From the NCBI GenBank assembly GCA_029557965.1, contig JAKQIM010000026.1, forward strand, positions 1 through 64,000: 64,000 bases of DNA, written 5' to 3'. The position numbers and the translations under genes are program-made. Positions 9,804 through 37,728 of the stretch are shown piece after piece. Position 1 is the first letter of the stretch. Every line of letters starts with the position of its first letter. This DNA is from Chloroflexota bacterium (GTDB lineage Bacteria > Chloroflexota > Anaerolineae > Anaerolineales > UBA4823). A model generated the notes under the pieces. It was not told the DNA's origin. It was given only the letters and a program-made list of their open reading frames with translations, and did not search any database.

Positions 9804-9854
9804 TAAAGAAAAACCTCCTGCCAGGCTGGAGGAGGGGTGGGGGTAGATGGCGCA

Positions 9855-9950
9855 TGCAATTCCTCCGCCGGCATTATCCGGATCAGGTTCGCGGGTCGAG
9901 AGCTGTGGCTCTCCTCTCAGCCTGGCAAAACAGGCTCCCCGTGCAGGGTT
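9855..9950 (-). promoter_or_regulatory. TPP riboswitch (THI element)
   Basis: On the minus strand the conserved THI blocks occur in order: ACGGGGAGCC, GGCTGAGAG, CGACCCGCGAACCTGATCCG and GATAATGCCGGCGGAGGAAT. This matches the classical TPP aptamer, including the CTGAGA pyrimidine-sensing loop and the pyrophosphate-side GCCGGCGGAGG helix. Downstream, CCTCC (9829-9833 area) can pair with the AGGAGG that serves thiN, so a translational off-switch is likely. The four genes that follow are all thiamine-related. Confidence 0.95.
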
Positions 9951-9962
9951 ACTGCAAGAAAG

Positions 9963-9992
9963 AGTATAAGCCCATCCTTTACAAATTGTCAA
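9963..9992 (-). promoter_or_regulatory. Promoter of the thiamine operon
   Basis: On the minus strand TTGACA (plus 9987-9992), an 18-nt spacer and TATACT (plus 9963-9968) lie just upstream of the riboswitch aptamer. The placement leaves only a few nucleotides before the first aptamer helix. Confidence 0.7.
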
Positions 9993-10017: not shown

Positions 10018-10046
10018 TTGACGCAAACCTCGCTTGCATGTATAAT
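10018..10046 (+). promoter_or_regulatory. Promoter of the ten-gene signalling/lipid operon
   Basis: TTGACG at 10018-10023, a 17-nt spacer and TATAAT at 10041-10046. It points away from the thi promoter and leads into the DUF4388 gene with a leader of about 105 nt. No second comparable promoter was noticed before 25259, which supports one long transcript. Confidence 0.65.
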
Positions 10047-10157
10047 TTTTGAGAAGTCAGGTTTTTGATATTCCTGATGCACACCCGGGTAGATGTTTTT
10101 TGTGATCAGGTCTCGAAGTTTGTATCGGCGTGGGTAAAGGCGGTTGGAGGCCAGCAT

Positions 10158-10979
10158 ATGGCATTAAAGGGTAATTTGCGTGATTTTTCGATCACTCAAC
10201 TGCTGAATTTGATTAACGTTGCCCAGAAAACAGGCACATTGGTTATTGAAGGCCCGTCGGAGGAAATATGGGTGTGTTTCCGAGATGGGAAATTGGCGTT
10301 TGCCCGGGATGGGCAAGAGGACGGCAGCCTGGCCTCGGTGCTGTTCCGGGAGAAGAAAATCTCTGCCGCTCAATTCCGCGCCATCAAAGAGCGGGCGGGG
10401 GCGATGTCGGATAAAGAATTGGGGCTGTTGTTGATCAACGCCAATTACATCTCCCAGCAAGACATCCTGGCGAGTTTGCAGAATTATTTTGTGGGCATTG
10501 TGAACCGCCTGTTCACCTGGGTAGAAGGGTTGTTCCGCTTTGAGAACAACATGATGCCGCCGGATGATAAGATCACGGTGCGCATCAGCCTTGAGAACCT
10601 GATCATTGACGGTTCGCGCCGGGTGCGCGAATGGGAACAACTGCAAGACGAAATCCCCAGCCTGGATATGGCGCTAAAGTTCACTGACCGCCCGGGGACG
10701 AACCTGCGGAATGTGAACCTGAGCGTGGAAGAATGGCGCGTGGTTTCGTATATCAATCCAAAGAATTCCATCCGGCAAATTGCCAAGACCACCAATAAGA
10801 GTGAGCTTGAAATTCGCCGGATCGTTTACGGCTTACTGCAAGCCGGGCTGGTAGAGTTGATCCGCCCGGCGGGAATGCCGGTGCCGGTGCCTCAGGGTCG
10901 CCCGGCGCTGCCGCAGGCAAGTAAAGATGAACAGAAATCACTCATTAATCGGATCATTGGCCGCATTCGTTCGATTTAA
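10158..10979 (+). CDS. DUF4388 domain protein with C-terminal winged-helix-like region
   Basis: A 273-residue soluble protein. The start at 10158 has GGAGG 7 nt upstream; the longer frame from 10065 lacks one. Residues 1-110 form a DUF4388 (PatA-like) domain: ALKGNLRDFSITQLLNLINVAQKTGTLVIE, then FRDGKLAFA and ELGLLLINANYIS. A second alpha/beta part follows (FTWVEGLFRFEN). Residues 195-240 look like a winged helix (VVSYINPKNSIRQIAKTT, then LEIRRIVYGLLQAGLVEL). DUF4388 proteins are found in gliding, taxis and GTPase-linked signalling loci. It opens the operon and lies 24 nt before a small GTPase, its probable partner. Confidence 0.8.
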   Translation: MALKGNLRDFSITQLLNLINVAQKTGTLVIEGPSEEIWVCFRDGKLAFARDGQEDGSLASVLFREKKISAAQFRAIKERAGAMSDKELGLLLINANYISQQDILASLQNYFVGIVNRLFTWVEGLFRFENNMMPPDDKITVRISLENLIIDGSRRVREWEQLQDEIPSLDMALKFTDRPGTNLRNVNLSVEEWRVVSYINPKNSIRQIAKTTNKSELEIRRIVYGLLQAGLVELIRPAGMPVPVPQGRPALPQASKDEQKSLINRIIGRIRSI

Positions 10980-11003
10980 TTGTTTTTTATAAGGGAATTG
11001 GCT

Positions 11004-11543
11004 ATGCAAACTGTGAAAATGGTGGTAACCGGGCCTTTCAATTCTGGTAAGACAGAATTCATCCGGTCTGTGAGCGAGATTGACGTGGTTTCGACGGAAC
11101 GTAAGATCAGTTCCGATTCGGAACGCGTCAAAGATCAGACCACCGTGGCGATGGATTTTGGCCGTATCACGGTTGACGACAACCTGGTGCTCTATCTGTT
11201 TGGCACGCCTGGACAACGCCGCTTCGACTTCATGTGGGAGATCTTGTCTGAGGGCATGCTGGGCTTTATCGTGATGGTAGACAGCACCCGTCCTGAAACC
11301 TTCCGTGAGGCGCGCAATATCCTGGAAACATTCCGTGCATATGCACCAACCCCTTATGTGGTTGTGGCAAACAAGCAAGACTGCAAGGATGCCTGGGACC
11401 TGGAAGATATGCGTATTGCGCTGCGCCTGGATGGACGGGTAAAGTTTTTGCCTTGCGTGGCAACGGATAAAGAGTCGGTCAAGAATGCTTTGCTTGAGCT
11501 GTTGTACAGTATCCTAGAGGAAATGGAAAAGGGCGAGGGATAA
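11004..11543 (+). CDS. Ras-like small GTPase (COG2229/MglA-like)
   Basis: A 179-residue P-loop GTPase. G1 is TGPFNSGKTEFI, G2 is a Thr-rich QTTVAMDFG, G3 is LFGTPGQRRF (Gly in place of the usual Asp, as is common in the bacterial COG2229 group), and G4 is VVANKQD. Single domain, no membrane anchor. AAGGGA lies upstream of ATG 11004. Related GTPases in Streptomyces conservons and Myxococcus polarity systems act downstream of sensor kinases with a roadblock partner. Here the partner may be the DUF4388 protein, and the kinase may be the giant GAF protein further down the operon. Confidence 0.85.
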   Translation: MQTVKMVVTGPFNSGKTEFIRSVSEIDVVSTERKISSDSERVKDQTTVAMDFGRITVDDNLVLYLFGTPGQRRFDFMWEILSEGMLGFIVMVDSTRPETFREARNILETFRAYAPTPYVVVANKQDCKDAWDLEDMRIALRLDGRVKFLPCVATDKESVKNALLELLYSILEEMEKGEG

Positions 11544-11576
11544 ACCACACCCCTTGACCTGGTCTGGTTTGCGGCT

Positions 11577-12485
11577 GTGTCATCATTCACTACTGATCAG
11601 GGCATTGTTCATTACGAAGTCTACGGACGCGGGCGCCCGGTAATTTTGCTGCACGGGTGGCTGGGCTCTTGGGGTTTGTGGCAAGAGACCATGGCCTACC
11701 TGGGGCGGTATTACCGTACCTATGCGCTCGATTTTTGGGGTTTTGGCGAATCGGGCACCAAGCGCGATACCTATGCGGTACAAGATTTTGTCAGCCTGGT
11801 GGACCAATTCATGGAACAGTTGGGGATCAACCAGGCGCCTTTGGTGGGCCACAGCATGGGGGGCACGGTCAGCCTTTCGGTGGCGATCAAGTATCCGGCG
11901 CGGGTGCGCAAGGTGGTGGTGGTGGGCTCGCCGATCGTGGGCAGCTCGCTTTCGCTGCTGCTCAAATTAATGGGACGCCGGCCGATTGCCTTCATCACCT
12001 ATAATAACATGTGGGCATTTAAGCTGGGCTTCCGCATGATGGCGCCCTTGTTTTCCAGGGATCGTAACTGGGCGAATATGATGGATCGAGACGTATCGAG
12101 ACTGACCCTCGAATCCTTCTTGATGAGCATTGCCTCGCTGCGGCGGACGGATCTGCGCCCTCTGTTGGGCCAGGTGAAGATCCCAGCCATGGGTATGTTT
12201 GGGCACCGGGATATTGTGGTGCACCCCAACCAGTGGAAGCCGATGTTGGAAGGGATCCCGCACGCGCGGATCGAACGCTTCCCTGATGCGGGCCACTTCA
12301 TTATGCTTGATGAGCCGCAGCGCTTCATGGAAACGCTGCGCGATTTCTTAGACAGCCCCATTGCGCAGCCGGGCAGCGAACAGCCTGCGGCAACTGGGCG
12401 AACAGCCGCCAGCGAGCCCGGCGCGGTTGTACCTGGCTCTGGTTCACCCCCCTCTGTGAAAAGTTCGACACCCCCGGCAGTATGA
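11577..12485 (+). CDS. Alpha/beta-fold hydrolase with intact triad
   Basis: A 302-residue alpha/beta hydrolase starting at GTG 11577. The oxyanion region is VILLHGWLGSW, the nucleophile elbow is VGHSMGG (Ser93), Asp212 is in GHRDIVVHP, and His240 is in DAGHFIMLDEP. Substrate is not evident; the fold covers esterases, lipases and C-C hydrolases. A disordered Pro/Ser/Ala-rich tail (about residues 263-302) follows. Its stop overlaps the V4R gene start (ATGA). A clear paralogue with Ser93 replaced by Gly lies at 24464-25252 and closes the same operon. Confidence 0.85.
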   Translation: MSSFTTDQGIVHYEVYGRGRPVILLHGWLGSWGLWQETMAYLGRYYRTYALDFWGFGESGTKRDTYAVQDFVSLVDQFMEQLGINQAPLVGHSMGGTVSLSVAIKYPARVRKVVVVGSPIVGSSLSLLLKLMGRRPIAFITYNNMWAFKLGFRMMAPLFSRDRNWANMMDRDVSRLTLESFLMSIASLRRTDLRPLLGQVKIPAMGMFGHRDIVVHPNQWKPMLEGIPHARIERFPDAGHFIMLDEPQRFMETLRDFLDSPIAQPGSEQPAATGRTAASEPGAVVPGSGSPPSVKSSTPPAV

Positions 12486-13114
12486 ATGCGGAAATGAAAG
12501 CAGCTTACTACTATCCGAATAAGCTGGGGCGAATCATCCTCCTATCCATGGAGGAGATCATCGGCCGCACCGGTGTGAATGCGATCTTGAACCAGGCCAA
12601 CCTGGCAGAGCTGATCAACCATTACCCGCCCAATGACCTGGATCTGGCGGTGCGTTTTGAAGATGTGGCCCGGATGCAGGTGGCCTTGGATGCCATTTAC
12701 GGGCCGCGCGGCGGGCGGGGCCTGGCATTAAGGGCCGGGCGGGCCTGCCTGAAGCACGGCTTGCGCGAGTTCGGGCCGCTGTTAGGTTTGACTGACCTGG
12801 CTTTCCGCCTGCTACCGCTGGAAGAAAAGCTGCGCACCGGTGCGGCGATCTTTGCCGATATCTTTAACCAGTATTCAGACCAAAAGGTGGTGGTTAAAGA
12901 AGAAGCAGATAAGATTTTGTGGATCATTGAGCGCTGCCCGGTGTGCTGGCAGCGCAAGGCCGACAGCCCGGTGTGCCACCTGGCGGTGGGCTTGCTGCAA
13001 GAAGCCTTGTATTGGGTCAGCGGCGGCAAGTATTTTGATGTAGAAGAGACCCGCTGTATCGCCCAGGGCGACGATGCCTGTGTGATCACGATTGGGAAGC
13101 AGGCGTTGGATTAG
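12482..13114 (+). CDS. V4R (4-vinyl reductase) domain protein
   Basis: A 210-residue protein. The C-terminal part (about residues 140-205) carries the V4R signature with conserved cysteines and acidic residues: ERCPVCWQRKADSPVCHLAVG, then EETRCIAQGDDACVITI. V4R domains bind small molecules, often hydrocarbons or metals, in sensory regulators and occur in BchJ-related proteins. The N-terminal region (MEEIIGRTGVNAILNQANL) is helical and matches the lead-in seen in other V4R proteins. Translationally coupled to the upstream hydrolase and followed 39 nt later by the hexapeptide transferase gene. It may bind the lipid-like product or substrate of the operon; that is inference. Confidence 0.75.
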   Translation: MNAEMKAAYYYPNKLGRIILLSMEEIIGRTGVNAILNQANLAELINHYPPNDLDLAVRFEDVARMQVALDAIYGPRGGRGLALRAGRACLKHGLREFGPLLGLTDLAFRLLPLEEKLRTGAAIFADIFNQYSDQKVVVKEEADKILWIIERCPVCWQRKADSPVCHLAVGLLQEALYWVSGGKYFDVEETRCIAQGDDACVITIGKQALD

Positions 13115-13153
13115 CTTGAGTGCGGTAAATCGGATGGTGGTTTTGGGAGCACT

Positions 13154-14431
13154 ATGCTAAAAATCATTTTACAGGATCCTCGATACCTGACGCCGTTCAA
13201 CGAGCGAGCCAGGGATATTCGCATCATGAACAAGCCTTTGTGGCTGTCGCAGCGTGATGTGTTGATGCCCTATACGCATCGCGAGTTAGAGCTGCCGTTT
13301 GGGGCCTCGCTGCCGCAGACGAACGAGGAGTGTATCGTTTACCGCGATAACCTGTTTTTTGACGCGTTCTATATCCAGGCTTTTATCGAGAAAGCCAAGG
13401 AAGTGGGCGGGGCCTGCCGGGCAGCTTTTACCACCGATGACCCGTCTTTTCGTGAGCACGCCCTGCCGCTTTCGGTCTCGTATACCCCCGAAGGCGAATA
13501 TTACCTGGCTGACCTGTGGTACTATCCCAATGGGCCAGGCGAGCCAGCCAAAGCGTTGTGCGTGGATACGCTGCCGATCGAGGCGGGGTATTATCACGTG
13601 CCCACCTACATGGCATACGAGCAGGGCGACCTGACCTTTCAGGTGCCTCGCCGCAGCTTGCTGGCGCTCGATACCTGGGTGCACATCTTCATTGCTGATG
13701 TGGTTTACGGTTTATTCGCACGCGGAGCGCGCTTTGAGCACAGGTTAGACAACAACTTGTTCTTTAAGCTAAGCGTTTTGGCAAGGGCCATGTACGAAGG
13801 CAAACAGGTGCTGGATTGCTCGAAGGTGGTGCAGATCGGCAAGAACTGCACGATCGACCCCAGCGCGGTCATCCACGGACCGACCTCGATCGGGGATAAT
13901 GTCACGATCGGGGCGGGGGTGGCAATTGAGAACTGCGTGATTGGGGATAACGTGAACGTGGGGCAGGGCTGCCAGTTGATGCTGTCGGTGGTGGGCGATG
14001 GAGCCTTCTTGCCGTTCCGGGCTGCTTTGTTCATGACCACCTTTATGGATAACAGCATGGTGGCGCAGAACACCTGCCTGCAGATGTGCGTGGTGGGGCG
14101 CAACACGTTCATCGGGGCGGGCTCAACCTTTACCGATTACAATCTTCTGCCATCACCCATCCGGGCGATGGATGGGCATGGCAAGCTGGGGCATGCCAAC
14201 CGGCCGGTGCTGGGGGGCTGCGTGGGGCATAACTGTCGCCTGGGGGCAGGCATGATCGTCTTCCCGGCGCGCACGATCGAGTCGGATGTGGTGGTGTTCG
14301 CATCTAAAGAGAGGCGGGTGATTGATAAGGATCTCCATTTTGAGGACAGCGACCATCATGGGCTAAAGTTCTCCAAGCTCCATCCCCGGTTATACCCACG
14401 GCCAGGTGAAGCGAGCGAGGAGTCCTGGTAG
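13154..14431 (+). CDS. Left-handed beta-helix (hexapeptide) transferase-like protein, GlmU-like layout
   Basis: A 425-residue protein. The N terminus (about 1-215) begins LKIILQDPRYLTPFNERARDIRI, which recalls the N-terminal domain of GlmU-like sugar-nucleotide proteins, but no nucleotidyltransferase GxGxR motif is seen. Residues 225-390 hold hexapeptide repeats (IGKNCTIDPSAVIHGPTSIG, then IGDNVNVGQGCQLMLSVV, then LGAGMIVFPARTI) forming a left-handed beta-helix typical of acyl- or acetyltransferases. Start ATG 13154 with GGGAG upstream. It ends 3 nt before the reductase-like gene. A role as an acyltransferase on a sugar or lipid is plausible but unproven. Confidence 0.6.
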   Translation: MLKIILQDPRYLTPFNERARDIRIMNKPLWLSQRDVLMPYTHRELELPFGASLPQTNEECIVYRDNLFFDAFYIQAFIEKAKEVGGACRAAFTTDDPSFREHALPLSVSYTPEGEYYLADLWYYPNGPGEPAKALCVDTLPIEAGYYHVPTYMAYEQGDLTFQVPRRSLLALDTWVHIFIADVVYGLFARGARFEHRLDNNLFFKLSVLARAMYEGKQVLDCSKVVQIGKNCTIDPSAVIHGPTSIGDNVTIGAGVAIENCVIGDNVNVGQGCQLMLSVVGDGAFLPFRAALFMTTFMDNSMVAQNTCLQMCVVGRNTFIGAGSTFTDYNLLPSPIRAMDGHGKLGHANRPVLGGCVGHNCRLGAGMIVFPARTIESDVVVFASKERRVIDKDLHFEDSDHHGLKFSKLHPRLYPRPGEASEESW

Positions 14432-14434
14432 CCT

Positions 14435-15526
14435 GTGGATACCTTTGCGTTCATTATTCATCCAATTGATCCCAAGCGTGACATTAGCCGGAAATACCCC
14501 TTCTTAGCCCGAATCGTCAACGACTGGATCATTTATGAGGTAGCACCCTTCTTTCCGCCGGTTTACCTGTCTGAGGTGAATGGGATCACCTCGGCGGCGA
14601 CCGGGAAGGAGATCAAAGGCTGGTTGATTGCCTGTCCATTGGTACCAAAACACTTTTTTCGGTTGCCAGAAAAGCGAGTCTATCGTAAGATTATAGAAAC
14701 TGGTCGTTTAGCTGAGAAACTTGGTGCTAAAATATTAGGGCTAGGAGCATTTACATCGGTCGTTGGGGATGCGGGCACCACAATTGCAAAGGCGCTGGAC
14801 ATCCCCGTCACAACAGGAGATTCGTACACGGTGGCAGTGGCTGTGCGGGCCATCCGGCAGGCGGCAGAGATGATGGGCATCCGGCTGGGAAGTGCTACGG
14901 CAGCGGTTGTGGGCGCCACGGGTGCGATTGGTAAAGCTTGTTCGGCGTTATTGGCAAATGAGGTGGCTGATCTGTATATGGTTGCACGCCACGAATCCGA
15001 ACTGGCACAATATCGAGAGCAGATGATTGCAGGTGGTGCGAGCGCCAACCTGCATGTTAGCACGAATATCGATGTGTTGCGAGAGGCGCAGTTGATCTTG
15101 ACCGTGACAAGTGCCGTACACAGCGTGATCGAGCCAGAGCATTTGCAGCCGGGGAGCGTGGTTTGTGACGTGGCCCGGCCGCGAGATGTATCGCAGCAGA
15201 TTGCGGCGGCGCGGGATGACGTGTTGGTGATCGATGGCGGGATGATCGACGTGCCCGGAGATGTAGATTTCCACTTTAACTTTGGTTTTCCGCCCGGCAA
15301 AGCATATGCTTGCATGGCCGAGACGATGGCTCTGACACTGGAGGGCCGCCTGGAGGATTACACTTTAGGGAAAGGGATTACACTGGATCGTATTAATGAA
15401 ATTACAGCCATCGCTGACCGGCATGGCTTTAAGCTCAGCGGCTTTCGCTCTTTTGAGCGGCCGGTAACTGAGGAACAAATCGAACGTGTGCGCCAGAATG
15501 CCAAACAGAGAAGAGGGCATTCTTAA
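14435..15526 (+). CDS. Acyl-ACP reductase-like (AAR-type) oxidoreductase
   Basis: A 363-residue protein starting at GTG 14435. It resembles cyanobacterial long-chain acyl-ACP reductase, which makes fatty aldehydes from acyl-ACP with NADPH. Shared features are GLGAFTSVVGDAG, the dinucleotide motif VVGATGAIGKACSALLA, the aldehyde-pocket region VTTGDSYT, and PPGKAYACMAETMALTLEG with Cys293, placed almost exactly where the catalytic Cys294 of the Synechococcus enzyme lies. No aldehyde-deformylating oxygenase is adjacent. Bases 14640-14770 are AT-richer than their surroundings. A shikimate-dehydrogenase-like reductase of another substrate is the main alternative. Confidence 0.72.
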   Translation: MDTFAFIIHPIDPKRDISRKYPFLARIVNDWIIYEVAPFFPPVYLSEVNGITSAATGKEIKGWLIACPLVPKHFFRLPEKRVYRKIIETGRLAEKLGAKILGLGAFTSVVGDAGTTIAKALDIPVTTGDSYTVAVAVRAIRQAAEMMGIRLGSATAAVVGATGAIGKACSALLANEVADLYMVARHESELAQYREQMIAGGASANLHVSTNIDVLREAQLILTVTSAVHSVIEPEHLQPGSVVCDVARPRDVSQQIAAARDDVLVIDGGMIDVPGDVDFHFNFGFPPGKAYACMAETMALTLEGRLEDYTLGKGITLDRINEITAIADRHGFKLSGFRSFERPVTEEQIERVRQNAKQRRGHS

Positions 15527-15545
15527 TTTTTTATGGGAGGCTGAT

Positions 15546-16433
15546 ATGGGAAAAGCCCGACTACTGATTGTAGAAGACGATAGTGACATCTCAAACATGC
15601 TGCAAATATACTTCACAGGCCAGGGCTACGAAGTGGATGTGGCACCACGCGGGTCGGCGGCGTTGGAGAAAACACGCATCAACCTGCCGCACCTGATCGT
15701 GTTGGACATCATGCTGCCTGATATCGATGGCTTTGAGGTATGCCGCATCTTGCGGACCAACACACGCACCAGCCATGTGCCGATCATCTTCCTGACTCAG
15801 AAGGATGAGCGCAGTGATAAGCTGGCGGGCCTGGAGTTGGGGGCAGATGACTACATCACCAAGCCCTTCGATATTGAAGAGCTCAAACTGCGTGTGCAGC
15901 GTGCCATCTCGCGTGCAGAACAGCAAAGCCTGACAGACCCGCGTTCGGGCCTGCCTGCCGGCCGCTTGATCGAAGAACAGCTTCGCCGCATCATCCGCCA
16001 GCAGAATTGGGCCTTCATGGATGTGCGCGTGAATCACTTCGAGCCGTTCAAAGAAGCTTATGGCTTCGTGGCTGGTGATGACGTGCTGCGCTTTGCGGCC
16101 ATGCTGATCGGCGAGGTGCTGGATACCAAAGGCACCCCCAACGATTTCATTGGCCATGCCGGCGGTGATAACTTTGTGGTCATCACGGCTGAAGAGACGG
16201 CTGCCATGATCTGCGAGACCCTCAAAACCCGCTTTGCAGAAGAGGTCTTGTCGCATTACAGTTTCATTGACCGTGAGCAAGGGTTCATTCGCACGGTGAA
16301 TAAAGAAGGGCAGCCCGAAGAGGCACCTTTGATGAAGCTGGCGATTGGCGTTGTGTCGCCAAGTGAATACCAGTTTGCAGATATTCGCGAGATCACCGAG
16401 CTGGCTGCTGAAGCCCGGCGCAAAGATAGCTAG
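15546..16433 (+). CDS. Response regulator with degenerate GGDEF domain
   Basis: A 295-residue protein. REC domain at residues 1-125 with the acidic pocket VEDD, phospho-acceptor Asp54 in IVLDIMLPD and Lys in ITKPFD. The C-terminal part (about 130-290) has the length and layout of a diguanylate cyclase (DPRSGLPAGRLIEEQL, then EAYGFVAGDDVLRFAA) but its signature reads AGGDNF at 205-210 instead of GG(D/E)EF, so the metal-binding Glu is Asn. It probably does not make c-di-GMP and may act as a GTP sensor or docking module. Start ATG 15546 with GGAGG upstream. Confidence 0.8.
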   Translation: MGKARLLIVEDDSDISNMLQIYFTGQGYEVDVAPRGSAALEKTRINLPHLIVLDIMLPDIDGFEVCRILRTNTRTSHVPIIFLTQKDERSDKLAGLELGADDYITKPFDIEELKLRVQRAISRAEQQSLTDPRSGLPAGRLIEEQLRRIIRQQNWAFMDVRVNHFEPFKEAYGFVAGDDVLRFAAMLIGEVLDTKGTPNDFIGHAGGDNFVVITAEETAAMICETLKTRFAEEVLSHYSFIDREQGFIRTVNKEGQPEEAPLMKLAIGVVSPSEYQFADIREITELAAEARRKDS

Positions 16434-16474
16434 AGCAGGGTGGGTCTGCTGACGGCCTGATTCTCCCTGCCCCT

Positions 16475-19400
16475 ATGGGGTTTGTTTTGCATATGTTTGG
16501 CTCGGATTCGCTCACCTTTGGCGTTACAGTGGTTATCCTGGCGTTGGCCTTAGCCGGGGTGGCTTTGCTGTTCTTGCGCGTGGTGCCGCGAATCCTGGCA
16601 CTTCAACAGCCTCCATCTTCTTCTCTTCTTACAATTGATATCCCGGCTTCGGATGACGCCGTGCTGCTGGTCGAAATTGGCGGGCGCGTGCGTTATACCA
16701 ATCCGGTGGCGCGCGATTGGCTTGGCTATGGCGATGAAGAGCCTAACCTGGAACGCCTGGCCCGGCGCACTCGACCGAGCGACCTGTTCTTAGGATTGTG
16801 CGGTTCTGAGGGGCAGGCGCGCTTTTCGCTTGACGGTCGTTTTGTAGAAGGCACTTCTTATTTTGTGCCGCCCAGCAATGGCAAGAGCGGCGCGTACCTG
16901 GTGTCGCTGCGCAGGCCGCAGGTGACGGCGATCACCAATGGCGAAGCGGATGCTTCGGAGCATACCCTGCACATCTTTGCCGAGCTGAGCCAGACGATGG
17001 CCTCTAGCCTGGACCTGGAGACCACGCTGTATGCTATTCTGGAGAGCGTGGAACGCCTGATCCCATCTGATTTTCCTGAGATCACGGTTTGGGATGCGGC
17101 GAAAAAGAATTTACAGCCCTTCCACTTTATTGGTATGCCGGGGGTGGATCGCCGCCTGGAAGAAACGCAAGAACGTTATGCGCCCGATAAGGGTTATTCG
17201 GGCTACCTGGTGACAGAGCGTAAGCCGCTTTTGATCAACGATGTAGATTCCTTCCGTGAGGTGCGCCCCTCAGTTGTTCGTAAGCAGTATCCCTTCAATT
17301 CGTACATGGGTGTGCCGCTGGTAGTAGCCAACGAGCTGGTTGGAACGCTGGAACTGGCCTCTTTGGGTAAGCAGGCTTTCAACGAGTCAGACCTGGAGGT
17401 GCTGCGTGTTTTATCGGGCCAGGCGGCTGTGGCGCTGCATAATGCGATCCTGTTCCAGGGTGAACAGCGGCGCATCTTAGAGCTTTCGGGCCTGGCGAAG
17501 CTGGCGCAGGCCACGGGGCTGGTGCGCGACACCCAAGACTTCTTTGCTCGCCTGATCGAGGGGATTGAGCCCCTAGTAGACGCCCATACGATCGGCTTTT
17601 TGACTTATGACGAGTCAAAACGCCGCCTGCAGGCGCAAGCGCCGTTCAAGGGCATCCCGGTTGAATTTGTGGCGCTTTACGAGGTGCCCATCCCGCCGGG
17701 CAGCCCGGCTGAGGATGTGCTGCTGGCGCAGGAGATGATTGTTGCCCCGCAGGCTACGGAAGATGAGCGCCTGGTGGCGCTGGACCTGGCGCATCTGGCA
17801 CAGGCGGCGGGCATCCAAAACACGATCTTGATGCCGCTGACCTCTGTGGGGCGCTTCTTGGGTTATTTGCAGGTGGCTGATAAGCGCGATGGCCAGCCAT
17901 TCAACCAGGATGACCTGCGGGTGCTGACGATTGTGGCGGGGCAGGCGGCGACGGTGATTGAAAATGCCACCCTGGTGCGGCAGTCTCAAGAACGTGCTCA
18001 GCGTTCTGAAGCCATGCGCCGGATTGCCTCTTTGACCGGCTCTGTGGCAACGGTGGATGAGATCTTATCGTTCTCGCTGCGAGAACTGCTCCACCTGCTG
18101 CGGGCCGATGCCGGGGCGATCTTCTTGCTGGACGAGAACCGGGCCGAGTTGCGCGTGCACAAAGAGTCGCTGCATGGTATTGAGGCTGAGACGGTGGGGC
18201 GCATGGGGCGTATTTCGATGAACGACCCCGATTTCCGCCTGACCGTGACCGCCACGCAAAGGCCTTTCTTCAGCGATGATCTTTCTGAAGAAGCCATGCC
18301 CATGCAAACCTATGCCAACATTGCCACGGCCTTCGGGATGAAGTCGGCGATCATTGTGCCGATCGTGATCCGTGAGCATGGGATTGGCGAATTGATGCTG
18401 GGCAGCCGGTCGAAAGATTTCTTTGACCGGAGCGACCTGATCTTGATCTCGACCACTGCCAGCCAACTGGCAGCGGCGGTTGAGAAATCTACCCTTTATA
18501 CGCAGACGGACGAGAGCCTGCGCCGCCGGGTGGAGCAGCTTTTGGCCCTGACGCGCGTCAGCCGGGAGCTGAACACCAACCTGAAGCTTGAATCGCTGCT
18601 CCAACTGGTTTACGATGAGCTGCTGCACACCACCCAGGCGGGCTGCGGTACCATTTCATTGTTTGAGCTGCAAGACCGCTCGACGGGCAAGCCGCGCCTG
18701 CTGCTTTCATTGGGTGATCCGGCAGAGACTGAGCTGAGCCACCTGGAGCAGTTGGTGCTGACAAAAGAAGAGCCGATCATCGTGGACGATTATGACCATC
18801 CAGATGAGGCGCTGGGCAGCGATGTAAAGCCGCCGCATGAAGGGATCCGCTCTTCACTGGTGGTGCCGATTGCTTACCAGGATGACCTGGCGGGCCTGAT
18901 CCATTTGCACTCTCGAACGGTTGGGCATTTTGATATGACGGCCCTGGATATCACCCAGGCCCTGGCTACGCAGGCTTCCATTGCCATTGGCAATGCCATT
19001 CGCTTCCAAGAACAGAAGCGGCGCAATGAGCTGTTGAACCAACGCGTTGAAACGATGTCGAAGCTGGTGGAGGCTTCTCAGGTGCTTTCGCCAGACCAGC
19101 CGTTGGAGGATGCCCTGGAGGCGATTGCATACGGCATTCAGGATTCCACGCCCTTTAATGTGGTTTTGATCAGCGTGTACAACGCCGAGGGCAATAATTT
19201 GATCCGCGTGGCGGGGGCGGGCCTGCCGCTGGCTACCATGGAAGAGTTCCGCAGCCGGCCCCAGCCCTGGGCCTCGATTAAAGAGATGCTGGACCCGCAG
19301 TTCAAGTATGATTACGCCTACTTCATCCCGTTCGAAAAACGCCCGGTGACGCCAACCGACCTGCACTCGGTGACGGTTTTGCCGCTGGACGAGAGCAGTG

Positions 19401-22400
19401 TGAGCAATGAACAGGCCTGGCATCCGAAAGACTTCTTGCTGATCCCGCTCTTTACCAAGGGCGAGCGCCCGCTGGGCATGATCAGCGTGGATGCGCCGCG
19501 CACCGGGCTGCGCCCCGACCGGCCGACGATTGAGACTCTGGGCGTGTTTGCCAGCCAGGCGGCGCTGACCATCGAGAGCCACCAAGAGCTGCGCAGGCTG
19601 GAAGAACAGGCGCGGGAATTGCAGAATGAGACCGCCCGGGCGCGCCAGGCCCTCGAAGCCTCGCAAACTTATGTGCCGGTTTTGATGCACAAAGACCTTG
19701 AACAGACCATTGCTATCCAGGGATTGAACCAGCGTGGGCGCCGCATCCAGGCGGCTTTGGATATTGCCGAGCTGATCAACCGCCAGGCAAGCCGCGACGA
19801 TGTGCTGCTGACGCTGGGACGTGAAGTGTTGACCCGCATGGATTTGGATATGGTGCTGGTGGGCGAGATCAGCGCGGGCGGGCCGCATTTGCTATACACA
19901 TTGGGGGCCCTCTCGTCGCCTGGCTTGAACGTTGAGTCGCTGTTGGGCCAGCGCAACCCGCTGCGATCGGCGTTGCAGGGCGGCGAGATCATCCTGGTTT
20001 CTAACGTCGAGGAAAGCGCAGATTGGAAGTCTTCACCGCTCTTGGCTTCGCTGGAGGCCAAGGCTTTCGTCAGCCTGCCGATCTTGGTGAATGAGCAGGT
20101 GGACGCGGCGCTCTTGGGGGTCAGCCGTTCGATGATGAACCCGCCAACCGCCGAAGACCAGCACCTGTACAACCTGTTATGCCGCCAGGCGGCGATCTCT
20201 TTGGAGAATTTACGCCTGCTGACAGAAACCAACCGCCGCTTGCAAGAAGTGAACCTGCTGTTAGAGTTCAGCCGCCAGCTTGGCACCCTCGATTCGGCCA
20301 GTGTGCTGCGCACGCTGGTAGAAAGTGCCCTGCAGGTGGTGCCTAATGCGCACGCCGGCATGGTGGCCCTCTGGCAGGCAGAACAAGATGCCTTGGTGGT
20401 GCAGGCGGCCTCTGGTTATATTGATAATAACCGTATTCTTGAGATTCCCTATAAGGCCGGGCAGGCGCTGCCGGGGCAGGCGTTTGAGCGGGGCGAGGCC
20501 ATGCGGGTGGACGAGGTGGATTTTGCCCGCGATTACAACCTGCCCTCTGAGTATTTGCTGATCTACCGCGATGCCACCGAGGGCCGCCTGCCGGTTTCGA
20601 GCCTGTTGGTGCCCATCCAGACCGGTGATAATAAGCTGGGCGTCTTGGTGCTGGATAATTTCAAGGCTTCGTCAGCTTTCACGGTTGAGGACCAGGCTTT
20701 GATCGCTTCACTGGCGCGCCAGACGGCCCTGACGCTGGAAAACGTGCGCTTGTACCAGGCATCAGAACAGCGCGCGGTGCAGCTCTTGGCGCTGACGCAG
20801 GTAGCCGGTACGATCACTTCGAGCTTGCAGACCACGGACCTGATCAACTCTTTGCTAGACCAGGCCAAGAACATTTTGCCGTACGATACGGGGACGCTCT
20901 GGCTGCGCCAGGGCGACAAACTGACCGTGCGCGCGGCGCGCGGCTTTGAAGACAGCGAGCAGCGCATTGGATTATCGGTGGCGGTGGCTGACAGCTTGCT
21001 GTTGAAAGAAATGGTGAACACCAGCCAGCCTCTGTGCGTGGGCGATGTGCGCGAAGACCCGCGCTTCCCATCCTTGATCGAACACCAGTACCTGTCGTGG
21101 TTGGGTGTGCCGTTGATCTCGCAAGGCGAGGTGGTGGGGGTGATTGCGCTGGAAAAGACCGAGCCCGATTTCTACGGGCCAGAGCATATTGCCTCGGCGG
21201 TGACGTTTGCGGGGCAGGCGGCGGTTGGCCTGGTGAACGCGAACCTGTACGAAGAAAGCGTGCGGCGGGCGGCCGAATTGGATGAGCGCACCCAACGCTT
21301 GAGCCTATTGAACCGCCTGTCGGCAGAGTTGAGCGGTTCGCTGGATGTGGAATATATTGTGAGCGTGGCAATTGGCGAGCTGGCCCGGGCGGTGCCCTGC
21401 ACGATGGTGTCGGGCGTGCTCTTCGATACCGATGAACGCGCCATGGTGCTCGCAGAAACGCCCCAGGTGGCTGTCAAGTATCCGGTTGCCCTGCCTGAAA
21501 ATGAAGTATATAGCCGTATTCGCGAATCTTTGGGCGTTTACTCGGTGGAAGATGTGACCGAGGAAAGCTTGCTGGCTTCGCTCAAGGCATTCTTTAAAAA
21601 GCGCTCGACGCGGGCTTTGTTGATCTTGCCGTTGGTGACCGGCAATTACCTGCACGGCATGATGTGGATCCAGGCAGATAAGCCTTACCGCTATGATGCG
21701 GATGAGGTGGAGACGGCACTGACGATTGCCAACCAGGTGGTGGTGGCGATCCAGAATGCCCGCCTGTTTGCAGAGACCGAACGCTTGTTCGCCGAGACCC
21801 AGCAGCGCAGCGAAGAGCTGGGGACGCTGTTTGACATGGGTGTCAACATTACCCAGGTGCTCGATCAGCAGAAGTTGATCGATACCACCTTTGAGAATAC
21901 GATCCGCTTGCTAAAGGCTGATTCAGTGGGCCTGGTGATGACAGGCGATACCGAGAACCTGGTCATTCGAGCCCTGGATCAGGGCGAAAAAGTTGGCCCA
22001 ATGGCCATCCCGCGTTCGGGGAACAGCTTCAGCGAATATGTGCTGCAGAACGGCGAGCCTCTGGTCATCCGCGATATGGATACGGAGCGTGAGACTTTGC
22101 CGGTGAAGGGCTATACGATTGGTTCGCCGGTCAAGAGCTGGTTGGGCGTGCCGCTGACGGTGCGTGGAACAACGAACGGCGTTCTATCGGTGCATGCTTA
22201 CCATCCTCATGCCTTTGGCGATGCACAGTCGCAGTTGCTCAGCCAGGTGGGTAACCAGTTGGCTGTGGCGTTGGATAATGCCCGCTTGTTTGAGACGGTG
22301 CAGACTTACGCCGCCGACCTGGCCAAGCGCGTTTCTGAACGCACGCAAGAGCTGGAGATTGAGCACAACCGCACGCAAACCCTGCTCAACATCATCACCG

Positions 22401-24040
22401 AGCTCTCTGCCAGCCTGGACCTGGACCTGGTGTTGAATCGCACCCTGGCTGTTTTGAACGAGGCCATCAGCGCAGAGCACAGCCTGATCATGCTGGTGCG
22501 TCCGGATGATGAAATGCTGTACCTGCGGGCTTCGCTGGGCTATACGGCCCCGCCGCCCAAGGGTGGCAAGGCTTCTTCCATCCGGCCGAACGAAGGGTTG
22601 GCGGGTTGGGTTTTGGTCAACCGGCAGGCCACGATGGTGCCAGATCTGCTGGAGGATGAGCGCTGGCTGCATAAATCGGAACAGCCTAACCAGCACCGCA
22701 GCGCCCTGGCTGTGCCGTTGATGATGGGTGAAGAAAGCCTGGGCGTGCTGATGCTTTACCACCGCCAGCCGAACCGTTTTGACGGCGGGCAGCTTGACCT
22801 GGTGACGGCAACCGCCAAGCAGATTGCTGTGGCGATCAATAACGCCCAGTTGTATAACCTGATCCGCAACCAGGCTGAGCAGTTGGGCGATATGTTGCGC
22901 ACGCAGCACATTGAGACCAGCCGCTCGCAGGCTATCTTGGAAGCCGTGGCAGATGGTGTGCTGGTGACGGATGCAAACCGGGAGATCACCCTGTTCAACA
23001 TCTCGGCTGAGCGCATCTTGGGGTTGGACCGCTTTGATGTGTTGGGCCGCAGTTTGGAGCATTTCATCGGTTTGTTTGGTAAGGCCGGGCAAACCTGGGT
23101 TAAGACCATTCGCACCTGGTCAGATGATCCCATGTCGTACCGCTCGGGCGAGTCTTACGCAGAGCAGATCGAGCTGGATAACCGCCGGGTCGTGGCGGTG
23201 CACCTCTCGCCGGTGCTGTTGCGCAACGACTTCTTGGGGACGGTGTCGATCTTCAGAGATATTACCCACATGGTTGAGGTGGACCGCTTGAAGTCGGAAT
23301 TTGTGGCGACGGTGAGCCATGAGCTGCGCACGCCGATGACCTCGATCAAGGGGTACGTGGAGATCATGTTGATGGGGGCAGCGGGCAAGCTGAGCGAACA
23401 GCAGGAACACTTCTTGCAGGTGGTCAAGTCAAACACCGAGCGCCTGGCGATCCTGGTCAACGATCTACTGGATATCTCGCGCATCGAGGCGGGGCGGGTG
23501 TCGCTCTCCTTCCAGCCTTTGGACCTGCACAAGATCACCCAGCAAGCGGTTGAGACGATCACCCAGCGCATGAAGGACGAGAGCCGCCCGATGAAGGTGG
23601 AGACCGACCTGGCGCCCGATCTGCCGGTGGCTTACGGCGACGAGGAACGGGTGCAGCAGATCTTAGATAACCTGGTGGAGAACGCGTACCAATACACCCC
23701 TGAGGGAGGCCAAATCCTGATCCGGGTGCACCAGGTGGAAAATGATGTTCAGTTTGATGTGAAGGACAATGGGATTGGTATTTTACCAGAAGACCAGCCG
23801 CGGGTGTTTGAGCGCTTCTTCCGCGGGGAGGACCCCCTGGTGCTGGCAACCTCGGGCACGGGGTTGGGGCTTTCGATCGTCCAGCACCTGGTTGAGATGC
23901 ACCGCGGGCGCATCTGGTTTGAGAGTGCGGGTGTGCCGGGGATGGGAACGGTCTTTTCATTTGCTATACCGATCTACACTGATGAAGACGCTGTTGAGCC
24001 GGTTGATGTACAGGGACGCGACGATGACATCATCCAATAA
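16475..24040 (+). CDS. Giant sensor histidine kinase with about eleven GAF domains
   Basis: A 2521-residue protein, far longer than usual kinases. Residues 13-38 form one transmembrane helix; a short PAS-like region follows. About eleven GAF modules are inferred from the repeated closing helix (A-x-x-NAxLF type) near residues 320, 494, 667, 836, 1029, 1241, 1419, 1582, 1757, 1929 and 2118. A PAS domain (ILEAVADGVLVTD) starts near 2154, HisKA has the phospho-acceptor in SHELRTPM (His2282), and the ATPase domain shows DNLVENAYQYTPEGG and GTGLGLSIV near 2398-2465. No obvious chromophore Cys pattern was traced. It precedes a single-domain REC, its likely phosphate acceptor. Start choice (16475 or 16493) is uncertain. 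Confidence 0.9.
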   Translation: MGFVLHMFGSDSLTFGVTVVILALALAGVALLFLRVVPRILALQQPPSSSLLTIDIPASDDAVLLVEIGGRVRYTNPVARDWLGYGDEEPNLERLARRTRPSDLFLGLCGSEGQARFSLDGRFVEGTSYFVPPSNGKSGAYLVSLRRPQVTAITNGEADASEHTLHIFAELSQTMASSLDLETTLYAILESVERLIPSDFPEITVWDAAKKNLQPFHFIGMPGVDRRLEETQERYAPDKGYSGYLVTERKPLLINDVDSFREVRPSVVRKQYPFNSYMGVPLVVANELVGTLELASLGKQAFNESDLEVLRVLSGQAAVALHNAILFQGEQRRILELSGLAKLAQATGLVRDTQDFFARLIEGIEPLVDAHTIGFLTYDESKRRLQAQAPFKGIPVEFVALYEVPIPPGSPAEDVLLAQEMIVAPQATEDERLVALDLAHLAQAAGIQNTILMPLTSVGRFLGYLQVADKRDGQPFNQDDLRVLTIVAGQAATVIENATLVRQSQERAQRSEAMRRIASLTGSVATVDEILSFSLRELLHLLRADAGAIFLLDENRAELRVHKESLHGIEAETVGRMGRISMNDPDFRLTVTATQRPFFSDDLSEEAMPMQTYANIATAFGMKSAIIVPIVIREHGIGELMLGSRSKDFFDRSDLILISTTASQLAAAVEKSTLYTQTDESLRRRVEQLLALTRVSRELNTNLKLESLLQLVYDELLHTTQAGCGTISLFELQDRSTGKPRLLLSLGDPAETELSHLEQLVLTKEEPIIVDDYDHPDEALGSDVKPPHEGIRSSLVVPIAYQDDLAGLIHLHSRTVGHFDMTALDITQALATQASIAIGNAIRFQEQKRRNELLNQRVETMSKLVEASQVLSPDQPLEDALEAIAYGIQDSTPFNVVLISVYNAEGNNLIRVAGAGLPLATMEEFRSRPQPWASIKEMLDPQFKYDYAYFIPFEKRPVTPTDLHSVTVLPLDESSVSNEQAWHPKDFLLIPLFTKGERPLGMISVDAPRTGLRPDRPTIETLGVFASQAALTIESHQELRRLEEQARELQNETARARQALEASQTYVPVLMHKDLEQTIAIQGLNQRGRRIQAALDIAELINRQASRDDVLLTLGREVLTRMDLDMVLVGEISAGGPHLLYTLGALSSPGLNVESLLGQRNPLRSALQGGEIILVSNVEESADWKSSPLLASLEAKAFVSLPILVNEQVDAALLGVSRSMMNPPTAEDQHLYNLLCRQAAISLENLRLLTETNRRLQEVNLLLEFSRQLGTLDSASVLRTLVESALQVVPNAHAGMVALWQAEQDALVVQAASGYIDNNRILEIPYKAGQALPGQAFERGEAMRVDEVDFARDYNLPSEYLLIYRDATEGRLPVSSLLVPIQTGDNKLGVLVLDNFKASSAFTVEDQALIASLARQTALTLENVRLYQASEQRAVQLLALTQVAGTITSSLQTTDLINSLLDQAKNILPYDTGTLWLRQGDKLTVRAARGFEDSEQRIGLSVAVADSLLLKEMVNTSQPLCVGDVREDPRFPSLIEHQYLSWLGVPLISQGEVVGVIALEKTEPDFYGPEHIASAVTFAGQAAVGLVNANLYEESVRRAAELDERTQRLSLLNRLSAELSGSLDVEYIVSVAIGELARAVPCTMVSGVLFDTDERAMVLAETPQVAVKYPVALPENEVYSRIRESLGVYSVEDVTEESLLASLKAFFKKRSTRALLILPLVTGNYLHGMMWIQADKPYRYDADEVETALTIANQVVVAIQNARLFAETERLFAETQQRSEELGTLFDMGVNITQVLDQQKLIDTTFENTIRLLKADSVGLVMTGDTENLVIRALDQGEKVGPMAIPRSGNSFSEYVLQNGEPLVIRDMDTERETLPVKGYTIGSPVKSWLGVPLTVRGTTNGVLSVHAYHPHAFGDAQSQLLSQVGNQLAVALDNARLFETVQTYAADLAKRVSERTQELEIEHNRTQTLLNIITELSASLDLDLVLNRTLAVLNEAISAEHSLIMLVRPDDEMLYLRASLGYTAPPPKGGKASSIRPNEGLAGWVLVNRQATMVPDLLEDERWLHKSEQPNQHRSALAVPLMMGEESLGVLMLYHRQPNRFDGGQLDLVTATAKQIAVAINNAQLYNLIRNQAEQLGDMLRTQHIETSRSQAILEAVADGVLVTDANREITLFNISAERILGLDRFDVLGRSLEHFIGLFGKAGQTWVKTIRTWSDDPMSYRSGESYAEQIELDNRRVVAVHLSPVLLRNDFLGTVSIFRDITHMVEVDRLKSEFVATVSHELRTPMTSIKGYVEIMLMGAAGKLSEQQEHFLQVVKSNTERLAILVNDLLDISRIEAGRVSLSFQPLDLHKITQQAVETITQRMKDESRPMKVETDLAPDLPVAYGDEERVQQILDNLVENAYQYTPEGGQILIRVHQVENDVQFDVKDNGIGILPEDQPRVFERFFRGEDPLVLATSGTGLGLSIVQHLVEMHRGRIWFESAGVPGMGTVFSFAIPIYTDEDAVEPVDVQGRDDDIIQ

Positions 24041-24069
24041 ACACTCACGGCAGGATGGTAGAGGGAAAA

Positions 24070-24453
24070 ATGGCGAAAATATTGATTGCTGAAGATGAAC
24101 GCGACATCCGGGATTTGATCACCTTTACGCTGCGTTTTGCGGGCTATGAGGTGGTGCCGACGGCGAACGGTGAAGAGGCTTACCTGACGGCCAAGGATAT
24201 GGAGCAAAAGCCAGACCTGATCATGATGGACGTGCGCATGCCCAGGATGACTGGCTATGAGGCTTGCAAGGCGATGAAGGCCGAGCCATCGATCGCGGGC
24301 ATCCCGGTGGTGTTCCTGTCTGCAAAGGGGCAGGAATCAGAGGTCAACACAGGGATGGACGTGGGCGCGGATGAGTACATTTTGAAGCCGTTTTCGCCCG
24401 ATCAATTAATGGATCGGGTGAAGACGATCCTTAAAAAATACGGCAAGGGATAG
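24070..24453 (+). CDS. Single-domain response regulator (CheY-like)
   Basis: A 127-residue REC domain: acidic pocket AEDE, phospho-acceptor Asp54 in IMMDVRMP, Thr/Ser switch in VVFLSAKG and Lys in YILKPFS. There is no output domain. ATG 24070 has GAGGGA upstream; the 24055 start would lack it. It lies 29 nt after the giant kinase and 10 nt before the second alpha/beta hydrolase, so it is the natural phosphotransfer partner. With no DNA-binding part, its output must be through protein contacts, for example with the GTPase or the degenerate GGDEF protein of the same operon. Confidence 0.92.
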   Translation: MAKILIAEDERDIRDLITFTLRFAGYEVVPTANGEEAYLTAKDMEQKPDLIMMDVRMPRMTGYEACKAMKAEPSIAGIPVVFLSAKGQESEVNTGMDVGADEYILKPFSPDQLMDRVKTILKKYGKG

Positions 24454-24463
24454 TGAGTGGCCA

Positions 24464-25252
24464 ATGAGCATCGTTACACTGGATGGTGAAATAATCCATT
24501 ATGAGGTGCTGGGGCGGGGCCGGCCGTTGTTCTTTTTGCACGGCTGGGTTGGCTCTTGGCGCTATTGGATTCCGACCATGCAGGCAGCTTCGATTACCTA
24601 CCGGGCGTATGCCATCGATATGTGGGGGTTTGGCGATACGGCGAAGCGCGCAGAGCGCTATACGCTCGAACAGCAGGTGAAACTGTTAGACAGTTTCATG
24701 GAGGCGCTGGGTATTGCGAAGATTGCCATTGTGGGGCACGGGTTGGGGGCGGTTGTGGGCCTGAACTTTGTGGTCAAGAATCCACAGTTGGTAGATCGGG
24801 CGCTGCTGACGGGATTCCCGTTGGGGAATTCGGCGGTGAGTGCGCGCTTGCGATCTGCGCCATTGCCCGAGCTGGTGGACTGGCTTTTGGGCAAGACGCC
24901 GGGCACCGACGCGGCGCGGGCAGAGGCCAATAAGACGGATCCACAGGCGGTGCGCGTGTCGCTGGATGATATGGACGCGCTCAACCTGCTGGACCAGACG
25001 ATGCGCATGACTACGCCGTGCTTGTTTGTGCATGGGCAAAACGATCCGGCAGTAGAGGCGCCGCCGGTGGAGTTGTTGAACACATTGCCAGATAACACAC
25101 ATGAGGTGATCTTTGATGCGACGGGGCATTTCCCGATGCTGGACGATGCGAATAAGTTCAACCGTTTGCTGGCCGATTTCCTGTCGCTGCCTTCGGGGGT
25201 AAGCCCGCGCGACTTGCAGTTGAAGGAAGAGTGGAAGCGGCGGGTGAGGTAA
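24464..25252 (+). CDS. Alpha/beta-hydrolase paralogue lacking the nucleophile Ser (Ser93 to Gly)
   Basis: A 262-residue alpha/beta-hydrolase fold protein, paralogous to the one at 11577-12485 (shared IIHYEVLGRGRPLFFLHGW, AIDMWGFGDT and LDSFMEALGI). The nucleophile elbow reads VGHGLGAVV: codon GGG at 24740-24742 gives Gly93 exactly where the paralogue has Ser93. The Asp (HGQNDP) and His (DATGHFPML) positions are kept. It is therefore predicted to lack esterase activity and may serve as a binding or regulatory subunit. Last gene of the operon; the tRNA-Asn promoter begins 7 nt after its stop. Confidence 0.85.
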   Translation: MSIVTLDGEIIHYEVLGRGRPLFFLHGWVGSWRYWIPTMQAASITYRAYAIDMWGFGDTAKRAERYTLEQQVKLLDSFMEALGIAKIAIVGHGLGAVVGLNFVVKNPQLVDRALLTGFPLGNSAVSARLRSAPLPELVDWLLGKTPGTDAARAEANKTDPQAVRVSLDDMDALNLLDQTMRMTTPCLFVHGQNDPAVEAPPVELLNTLPDNTHEVIFDATGHFPMLDDANKFNRLLADFLSLPSGVSPRDLQLKEEWKRRVR

Positions 25253-25258
25253 CTATCC

Positions 25259-25287
25259 TTGACATGCTTACCGGTTGCGCTTATAAT
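25259..25287 (+). promoter_or_regulatory. Consensus sigma70-type promoter of tRNA-Asn
   Basis: TTGACA (25259-25264), a 17-nt spacer and TATAAT (25282-25287): a perfect match to the consensus, as expected for a stable-RNA gene. It begins 7 nt after the preceding stop codon. Confidence 0.9.
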
Positions 25288-25310
25288 GGCGGTCGCTTGA
25301 CGCAAAACAT

Positions 25311-25384
25311 TCCTCGATAGCTCAATTCGGCAGAGCGGGCGGCTGTTAACCGCTAGGTTCTAGGTTCGAGTCCTAGTCGAGGAG
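25311..25384 (+). tRNA. tRNA-Asn (anticodon GTT)
   Basis: Seventy-four nucleotides fold as a cloverleaf: acceptor TCCTCGA/TCGAGGA, anticodon loop CTGTTAA with GTT, and the T-loop GGTTCGAGTCC. CCA is not encoded. It has its own consensus promoter and is followed by a strong terminator. Confidence 0.97.
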
Positions 25385-25406
25385 CCTGAGTACCTTAGTA
25401 CATTAA

Positions 25407-25447
25407 CAACTCTCCACCTGATATCGGGTGGAGAGTTGTGTTTTCTC
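25407..25447 (+). terminator. Rho-independent terminator after tRNA-Asn
   Basis: CAACTCTCCACC (25407-25418) pairs perfectly with 25427-25438 across an 8-nt loop, followed by TGTTTTCT. It ends the tRNA transcript. Confidence 0.88.
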
Positions 25448-37676: not shown

Positions 37677-37728
37677 TCTTTCTCCGTTCTACGCGGCGGG
37701 AGAAACCCCGCCTCTCTTAAAAATAAGG

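Follow-up and report, generated by a model that had tools for sequence, protein, structure and literature searches.

We analysed a window of 64,000 nucleotides from a Chloroflexota bacterium of the order Anaerolineales (GenBank assembly GCA_029557965.1, contig JAKQIM010000026.1, positions 1 to 64,000), which belongs to an incomplete metagenome-assembled genome (56% complete). The subject of this report is an operon within the window, a row of ten open reading frames between positions 10158 and 25252 that were all found on the plus strand, and in which a Ras-like small GTPase and a giant sensor kinase are encoded together with a number of enzyme-like proteins. In bacteria the wiring of Ras-like GTPases to sensor kinases is known mainly from the actinobacterial conservons and from myxobacterial polarity control. 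The layout described in a first-pass annotation, ten genes with gaps between -4 and 41 nt, was recovered as such: from gene 1 to gene 10 the intergenic distances are 24, 33, -4, 39, 3, 19, 41, 29 and 10 nt, and the predicted starts include GTG codons at 11577 and 14435. The two promoters named in the same annotation were also found. A putative sigma-70 promoter, TTGACG-17-TATAAT (10018..10046, plus strand), is seen directly in the sequence in front of the operon and matches the consensus at 11 of 12 positions, and a promoter with a 12/12 match (25259..25287, plus strand) lies right after the last stop codon, precedes a tRNA-Asn gene and marks the end of the operon.

Domains were assigned to the ten proteins by Pfam, which agrees with the calls made earlier for DUF4388, the Ras-like GTPase, V4R, the hexapeptide repeats, REC-GGDEF, the lone REC and the hydrolases, and the label of the reductase was taken from NCBIfam. 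Gene 1 (10158..10979; this and all following genes on the plus strand) encodes a DUF4388 protein of the PATAN type with a C-terminal winged helix (PF14332, 89.6 bits; AlphaFold 2 model with a predicted local distance difference test score of 87), which is a candidate regulator of the GTPase. When the model was compared with known structures in Foldseek, chains of GATOR1, SEAC and KICSTOR ranked first, and VIA-align against GATOR1 matched only the 73-residue winged helix (Z 10.1, 2.3 Å); the N-terminal DUF4388 half had no structural match in the same comparison, which carries no implication that its fold is novel. The GTPase itself is encoded by gene 2 (11004..11543; PF03029/PF00071, with ATP_bind_1 at 68.6 and Ras at 44.4 bits), resembles the conservon protein CvnD and carries the G3 motif GTPGQ. 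Its G1 to G5 motifs are conserved, orthologues that are 74-89% identical were found in 78 of 101 genomes of the order, and most genomes hold a single close copy. Gene 4 (12482..13114) encodes a V4R-domain protein of the Bet3/TRAPP-fold family (PF02830, 45.3 bits against a cut-off of 31) with a conserved set of cysteines at positions 152, 155, 165, 192 and 200.

Gene 7 (15546..16433) encodes a response regulator with a degenerate GGDEF domain (PF00072 98.7 bits, PF00990 39.0 bits), in which the phospho-acceptor Asp54 is invariant in 34/34 orthologues. The motif reads GGDNF in the window, and its fourth position is Asn in 31 of the 34; with the GG(D/E)EF signature degenerate in this manner an active diguanylate cyclase was rejected, and judged from the motif the domain is unlikely to be catalytic. 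In operons L055, L064 and L065 the REC-GGDEF gene is present as a tandem pair. Gene 8 (16475..24040) encodes a giant GAF-repeat sensor histidine kinase, with PAS, HisKA and HATPase_c domains assigned by Pfam, and the His-box of HisKA and the GxGLG motif are intact in 30 of 31 orthologues. The eleven GAF domains claimed for this kinase are obtained when the repeats are read by eye, but the significant Pfam stretches number ten. Gene 9 (24070..24453) is a stand-alone response-regulator receiver (PF00072, 98.2 bits) with an Asp54 that is invariant in 32/32 orthologues.

The remaining four genes encode enzyme-like proteins. Gene 3 (11577..12485) encodes an alpha/beta hydrolase, Hyd_a (PF00561, 113 bits), whose triad of Ser93, Asp212 and His240 is invariant in 29/29 orthologues and indicates that the protein is catalytically intact. 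Gene 10 (24464..25252) encodes the pseudo-hydrolase Hyd_b, in which the nucleophile Ser is replaced by Gly in a GHGLG motif; like Hyd_a it matches Abhydrolase_1 in Pfam. Among 32 orthologues this position is Gly in 28, Asp in 3, Ala in 1 and never Ser, in line with the inactive paralogue proposed earlier; the His is kept and the Asp mostly so. The Ser is also absent in another class of the phylum (GHGLG or GHGMG, with the Gly form found in Chloroflexus aurantiacus as well). Neither hydrolase was assigned a specific function, because what they match in the PDB is a generic range of alpha/beta hydrolases, with epoxide hydrolases and arylesterases among them.

Gene 5 (13154..14431) encodes a GlmU-like hexapeptide protein (PF00132 repeats), in which an N-terminal domain with a nucleotidyltransferase fold is followed by a C-terminal left-handed beta-helix; the protein is conserved phylum-wide. 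The best match of its AlphaFold 2 model in Foldseek and VIA-align was archaeal ST0452/GlmU, with the two-domain fold matched over 300 residues (Z 15.1, root mean square deviation 8.4). Although the fold is that of these nucleotidyltransferase-acyltransferases, the protein scores below every GlmU family cut-off, and the Gly-rich nucleotide loop of the GxGTR type is absent, with residues 1 to 48 free of Gly and no such loop in the alignment consensus. Because the N-terminal domain has no such loop, the protein is probably not a standard nucleotidyltransferase; in the model it looks like GlmU (sugar nucleotide or acyl transfer) and not like a lipid-specific enzyme. Gene 6 (14435..15526) encodes an accessory acyl reductase, and the AAR-like label given to it at first holds (NCBIfam PigE 213.7 bits, AcACP_reductase 124.6 bits). 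It is homologous to cyanobacterial AAR and to the N-terminal domain of PigE, and its Cys293 aligns with their catalytic Cys and is invariant in 38/38 sequences, but with 124.6 bits against the cut-off of 449.7 for cyanobacterial AAR (TIGR04058) it lies nearer to PigE. More distant AAR-like reductases were seen at L261:793-2973 and L071:1195-2355, one of them fused to an N-terminal domain of about 300 residues, and such paralogues adjoin epimerase-like, PlsC-like acyltransferase and SCP2-like genes (families judged by reading). These distant clusters are a possible lipid or ether-lipid pathway, and their neighbours support acyl chemistry for the reductase family, not for the whole operon.

Gene 6 was searched against the 101 genomes of the same taxonomic order, which gave 42 matches, and 40 loci were mapped with all ten proteins. 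In the 37 mapped loci that hold at least three operon genes, the genes are collinear and on one strand in every case (37/37), which bears out the earlier claim that the GTPase and the giant kinase are joined to enzymes in one conserved unit. Median gaps among the relatives range from -4 to 34 nt, the exception being the V4R position in loci that lack this gene or in which it went unrecognised, and a gap of more than 150 nt precedes the REC-GGDEF gene in 8/36 loci. The gene just before the GTPase encodes DUF4388 in every locus with enough sequence (117/117), a count from overlapping locus sets in which some genomes enter more than once. Gene-to-gene correlations of evolutionary distance are 0.63-0.89 when V4R is excluded, and 0.11-0.60 for V4R. 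Chance neighbourhood is excluded, since order and strand are kept in all 37 loci while the flanking genes of the window are present in just 0-9 of the 40. An assembly artefact, which the incompleteness of the window genome might suggest, is refuted by the identical order in 37 independent assemblies and in cultured strains, and we give such explanations practically no weight. When public genomes were scanned with the hexapeptide protein, the best 80 of 414 relatives were all labelled Anaerolineales or other Chloroflexota; cultured carriers with the same gene order are Levilinea saccharolytica, Ornatilinea apprima and Anaerolinea thermolimosa. In L. saccharolytica (L084, L085; NZ_LGCM01000042.1) the operon occurs twice on a single contig, as near-identical copies in inverted orientation with about 15 kb between them; both show the same identities for every gene, representing either a real duplication or an assembly artefact. 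The ten genes are hereby confirmed as a true operon, whose order is conserved over a large group of filament-forming bacteria and which reaches across the phylum, though it is reduced or split in places. As claimed earlier the operon appears to be undescribed, and no description was found in the open literature searched; in a denitrification paper the genes of A. thermolimosa are listed beside a nitrite reductase gene and the operon is left uncommented (PMC8756737).

The places where the operon is split or reduced tell which genes can be dispensed with. The scattering of the genes in relatives, which the first-pass annotation had named as evidence against a unit, is seen only in part: the order is kept as described above, but in A. 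thermolimosa the gene set is divided into two loci with the break after the hexapeptide gene, so that not every carrier can make one transcript of it. The idea of a unit was thus not refuted. The hexapeptide gene is present in 52 of the 101 genomes, the GTPase is found in all of these (52/52), and an orthologous reductase in only 37. Some of the 15 genomes without it are incomplete assemblies, but in L204 and L205 the two genes flanking the reductase are directly adjacent. Nor does the reductase occur where cultured Anaerolineaceae or C. aurantiacus carry the operon in reduced or split form. Two reduced operons come from genomes without any hexapeptide gene, namely L314 (DUF4388-GTPase-V4R-REC-GGDEF-GAF kinase-REC) and L318 (DUF4388-GTPase-V4R-GAF kinase-REC), and operons of this type have no hydrolase, hexapeptide protein or reductase; others of these genomes keep the DUF4388-GTPase pair only. 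Since the reductase is missing in 15/52 operon-bearing genomes and some operons keep the signalling genes alone, the signalling genes are the core and the chemistry genes the dispensable part. The acyl-ACP reductase was accordingly rejected as the centre of the operon, and the lipid or fatty-aldehyde chemistry that had been placed there does not hold that position, the hexapeptide protein being GlmU-like as well. At a homologous locus of the other class (L191:8716-19164) the GAF-rich kinase reading frame has 3482 codons, the largest kinase among the loci examined.

No gene for a roadblock protein lies in the operon, and the idea that these genomes lack roadblock altogether proved wrong, as ten genomes hold 1-5 copies each. 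In the window genome a roadblock gene is followed by paralogues of V4R and REC-GGDEF on contig G000:C46 (about 17103-18978; L277:3104-4979), with 50% and 44% identity, respectively, to the operon proteins. The V4R paralogue adjoins roadblock in 30/30 loci (the window genome and 29 relatives), and the REC-GGDEF paralogue comes next in 26 of the 30. Of the 101 genomes, 76 carry both GTPase and roadblock and 18 carry neither, with GTPase only in 2 and roadblock only in 5; the 18 genomes that lack both belong to no fewer than four families, and near-complete ones are among them. The presence of this MglB-type roadblock protein thus tracks that of the GTPase, and we infer that it acts on the operon GTPase in trans. 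V4R, which had been taken as a binding part of the lipid chemistry, is better explained as a member of the GTPase signalling set, since its paralogue adjoins roadblock in every locus.

Around the operon, the tRNA-Asn gene (25311-25386) lies downstream of the last stop at 25252. No terminator-like site was found between this stop and the tRNA gene (25253-25310), and a strong one is present beyond it (25406-25439). Since no such site precedes the tRNA promoter, read-through from the operon is possible, which would place tRNA-Asn partly under operon control. Inside the operon, 15 promoter-like sites scoring 9-10/12 were observed against 8.5 expected from shuffling, which is weak evidence for internal promoters. 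A divergent ABC permease, a substrate-binding protein and a thiamine-pyrophosphokinase-like gene, with functions by reading only, occupy 6384-9992 on the minus strand, and 8-9 of the 40 relatives likewise have the latter two near the operon. The window further holds a tRNA-SeC gene (anticodon tca; 37727-37822, minus strand), and the source organism may therefore encode selenoproteins.

From gene content, gene order, co-occurrence and the state of the active sites we propose that the operon encodes a conservon-like signalling hub of a small GTPase and a two-component system, a reading that we hold to be rather probable and in which regulatory connections, phosphorelay, ligand and cellular output are inferred. 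The best-supported model is a switching of the GTPase that is controlled by ligand or by phosphorylation. The GTPase (gene 2) would be the switch and DUF4388 (gene 1) its constant partner, with V4R (gene 4) and the roadblock in trans as regulators of the nucleotide state or as ligand-dependent platforms. The GAF kinase (gene 8) would sense cytosolic small molecules and phosphorylate REC-GGDEF (gene 7) and the lone REC (gene 9), which in turn would couple the state of the kinase to the GTPase and, with V4R, DUF4388 and roadblock, set its nucleotide state. The dead hydrolase (gene 10) may belong to the kinase module as a non-catalytic subunit that binds ligand, is receptor-like or serves as adaptor, and Hyd_a, the GlmU-like protein and, in some lineages, the reductase could either make or process the ligand or be the regulated output. 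For the final output we can only guess at cell polarity or at filament or envelope behaviour. The hub is supported because the phospho-acceptor Asp is invariant and the kinase motifs intact, because the DUF4388-GTPase pair is adjacent in all 117 loci and the gene order is kept in all 37, because reduced operons retain the signalling genes, and because roadblock, V4R and REC-GGDEF form a trio, GTPase and roadblock co-occur, and the GTPase accompanies every hexapeptide gene. The GTPGQ block common to CvnD and Thermus GTPases and the correlated gene distances point the same way. A more specific version is a bacterial regulator of TRAPP/MglB-like kind, and the idea that V4R (Bet3-fold) and roadblock assemble into a ligand-gated complex for exchange on, or activation of, the GTPase, set by the GAF kinase and the receptor-like dead hydrolase, is in our judgement doubtful.

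Several observations weigh against the hub. In the other class, C. aurantiacus included, the hexapeptide, REC-GGDEF, GAF kinase, in some cases REC, and Hyd_b genes lie together and the DUF4388-GTPase pair elsewhere; with the pair and the kinase module apart there, it is possible that two separate systems were merged only in Anaerolineae. DUF4388-GTPase pairs without any kinase nearby were found at L313, L315, L316 and L319. The roadblock locus is unlinked to the operon, and the Fisher p of 1.5e-13 for co-occurrence with the GTPase ignores shared ancestry. A GATOR1-like GTPase-activating protein function of DUF4388 was kept as a lead only, the match being confined to the winged helix.

If the genes made up two or three independent modules (DUF4388-GTPase; V4R-hexapeptide; REC-GGDEF-kinase-REC-Hyd_b), co-expressed without mechanistic coupling, the splits in A. 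thermolimosa, C. aurantiacus and several other genomes and the wide gaps before REC-GGDEF would be readily accounted for, but split genomes still retain the modules, the V4R and REC-GGDEF paralogues travel with roadblock, and the hexapeptide gene never occurs without the GTPase; we regard this explanation as improbable. Somewhat more credit, though still short of likely, goes to the first-pass view of a biosynthetic or lipid-modifying operon, where a product that is acylated or derived from an aldehyde is made by Hyd_a, the GlmU-like protein and the reductase and is sensed or regulated by kinase, GTPase, V4R and Hyd_b. The intact triad of Hyd_a and Cys of the reductase, the acyltransferase-like, epimerase-like and SCP2-like neighbours of distant AAR paralogues, and the retention of the hexapeptide gene and, in most of its carriers, the reductase fit such an operon. 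It is harder to reconcile with the loss of the nucleotidyltransferase loop, with operons holding signalling genes only, and with a reductase that is missing from so many carriers and from the other class.

The signalling hub is best placed by comparison with known GTPase systems. Conservons, and PATAN proteins near some MglA/MglB genes, have been described (PMC4316618). The Streptomyces conservon CvnA-D consists of a histidine kinase, a roadblock, a DUF742 protein and an MglA group 2 GTPase. The Chloroflexota operon likewise combines a sensor kinase (HisKA and HATPase_c, gene 8) with a CvnD-like GTPase, which is 42% identical to Streptomyces CvnD over the domain with the common block YLFGTPGQ-RF--MWE-L; the assignment to the CvnD type (MglA group 2) is made on this identity and block and not on a tree of all MglA groups. 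The Streptomyces GTPase compared lies in an annotated kinase-roadblock-DUF742-GTPase operon, which also has metabolic genes downstream. In contrast to conservons, the Chloroflexota operon has DUF4388, V4R, the hydrolase pair, the hexapeptide protein and a GAF-repeat kinase, and the C-terminus of gene 8 has no LPxR motif of the kind described for CvnA (PMC4316618). Pfam found neither roadblock nor DUF742 among the ten proteins, and there are two response regulators where conservons have none, so the operon is conservon-like, yet not a conservon.

The MglA-MglB-RomR system of Myxococcus and Thermus resembles the hub in having a Ras-like GTPase, a roadblock and receiver-domain proteins in the same genomes, but the Chloroflexota GTPase is distant from MglA (phmmer E 4.5e-8), has a DUF4388 partner and shares its operon with a kinase. 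Closer are loci of Thermus and Deinococcus, where a GTPase with 41-42% identity is encoded with roadblock, and in Thermus a DUF4388 gene is annotated directly upstream and the GTPGQ block of G3 is common to both GTPases. Unlike the Chloroflexota operon these loci are short and without kinase, V4R, hydrolases or hexapeptide protein, and the upstream gene in Deinococcus is annotated as hypothetical. A second, phylum-wide design for joining GTPase and kinase, with a constant DUF4388, V4R, a roadblock in trans and a dead hydrolase, would offer many testable pairs and give a context to three poorly understood parts, namely DUF4388, free-standing V4R and pseudo-hydrolases.

The Bet3/TRAPPC3 superfamily includes V4R (PMC2253512), and a study of Asgard archaea discusses roadblock, longin and TRAPPC3 proteins as GTPase regulators (PMC10933270). 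As in the eukaryotic and Asgard regulators of the TRAPP and Ragulator type (longin/roadblock with Bet3/TRAPPC3), V4R adjoins roadblock and a small GTPase in Chloroflexota. Genes for GTPases in the Asgard isolate MK-D1 generally do not share operons with such regulators (PMC10933270), whereas the bacterial V4R follows the GTPase or belongs to its operon, with the V4R paralogue located beside roadblock. A V4R-roadblock complex, if true, would be a bacterial counterpart of a V4R-roadblock-GTPase combination that the surveyed literature takes up for eukaryotes and Asgard archaea only, and would provide a bacterial setting for testing the link behind the eukaryotic regulators of membrane traffic.

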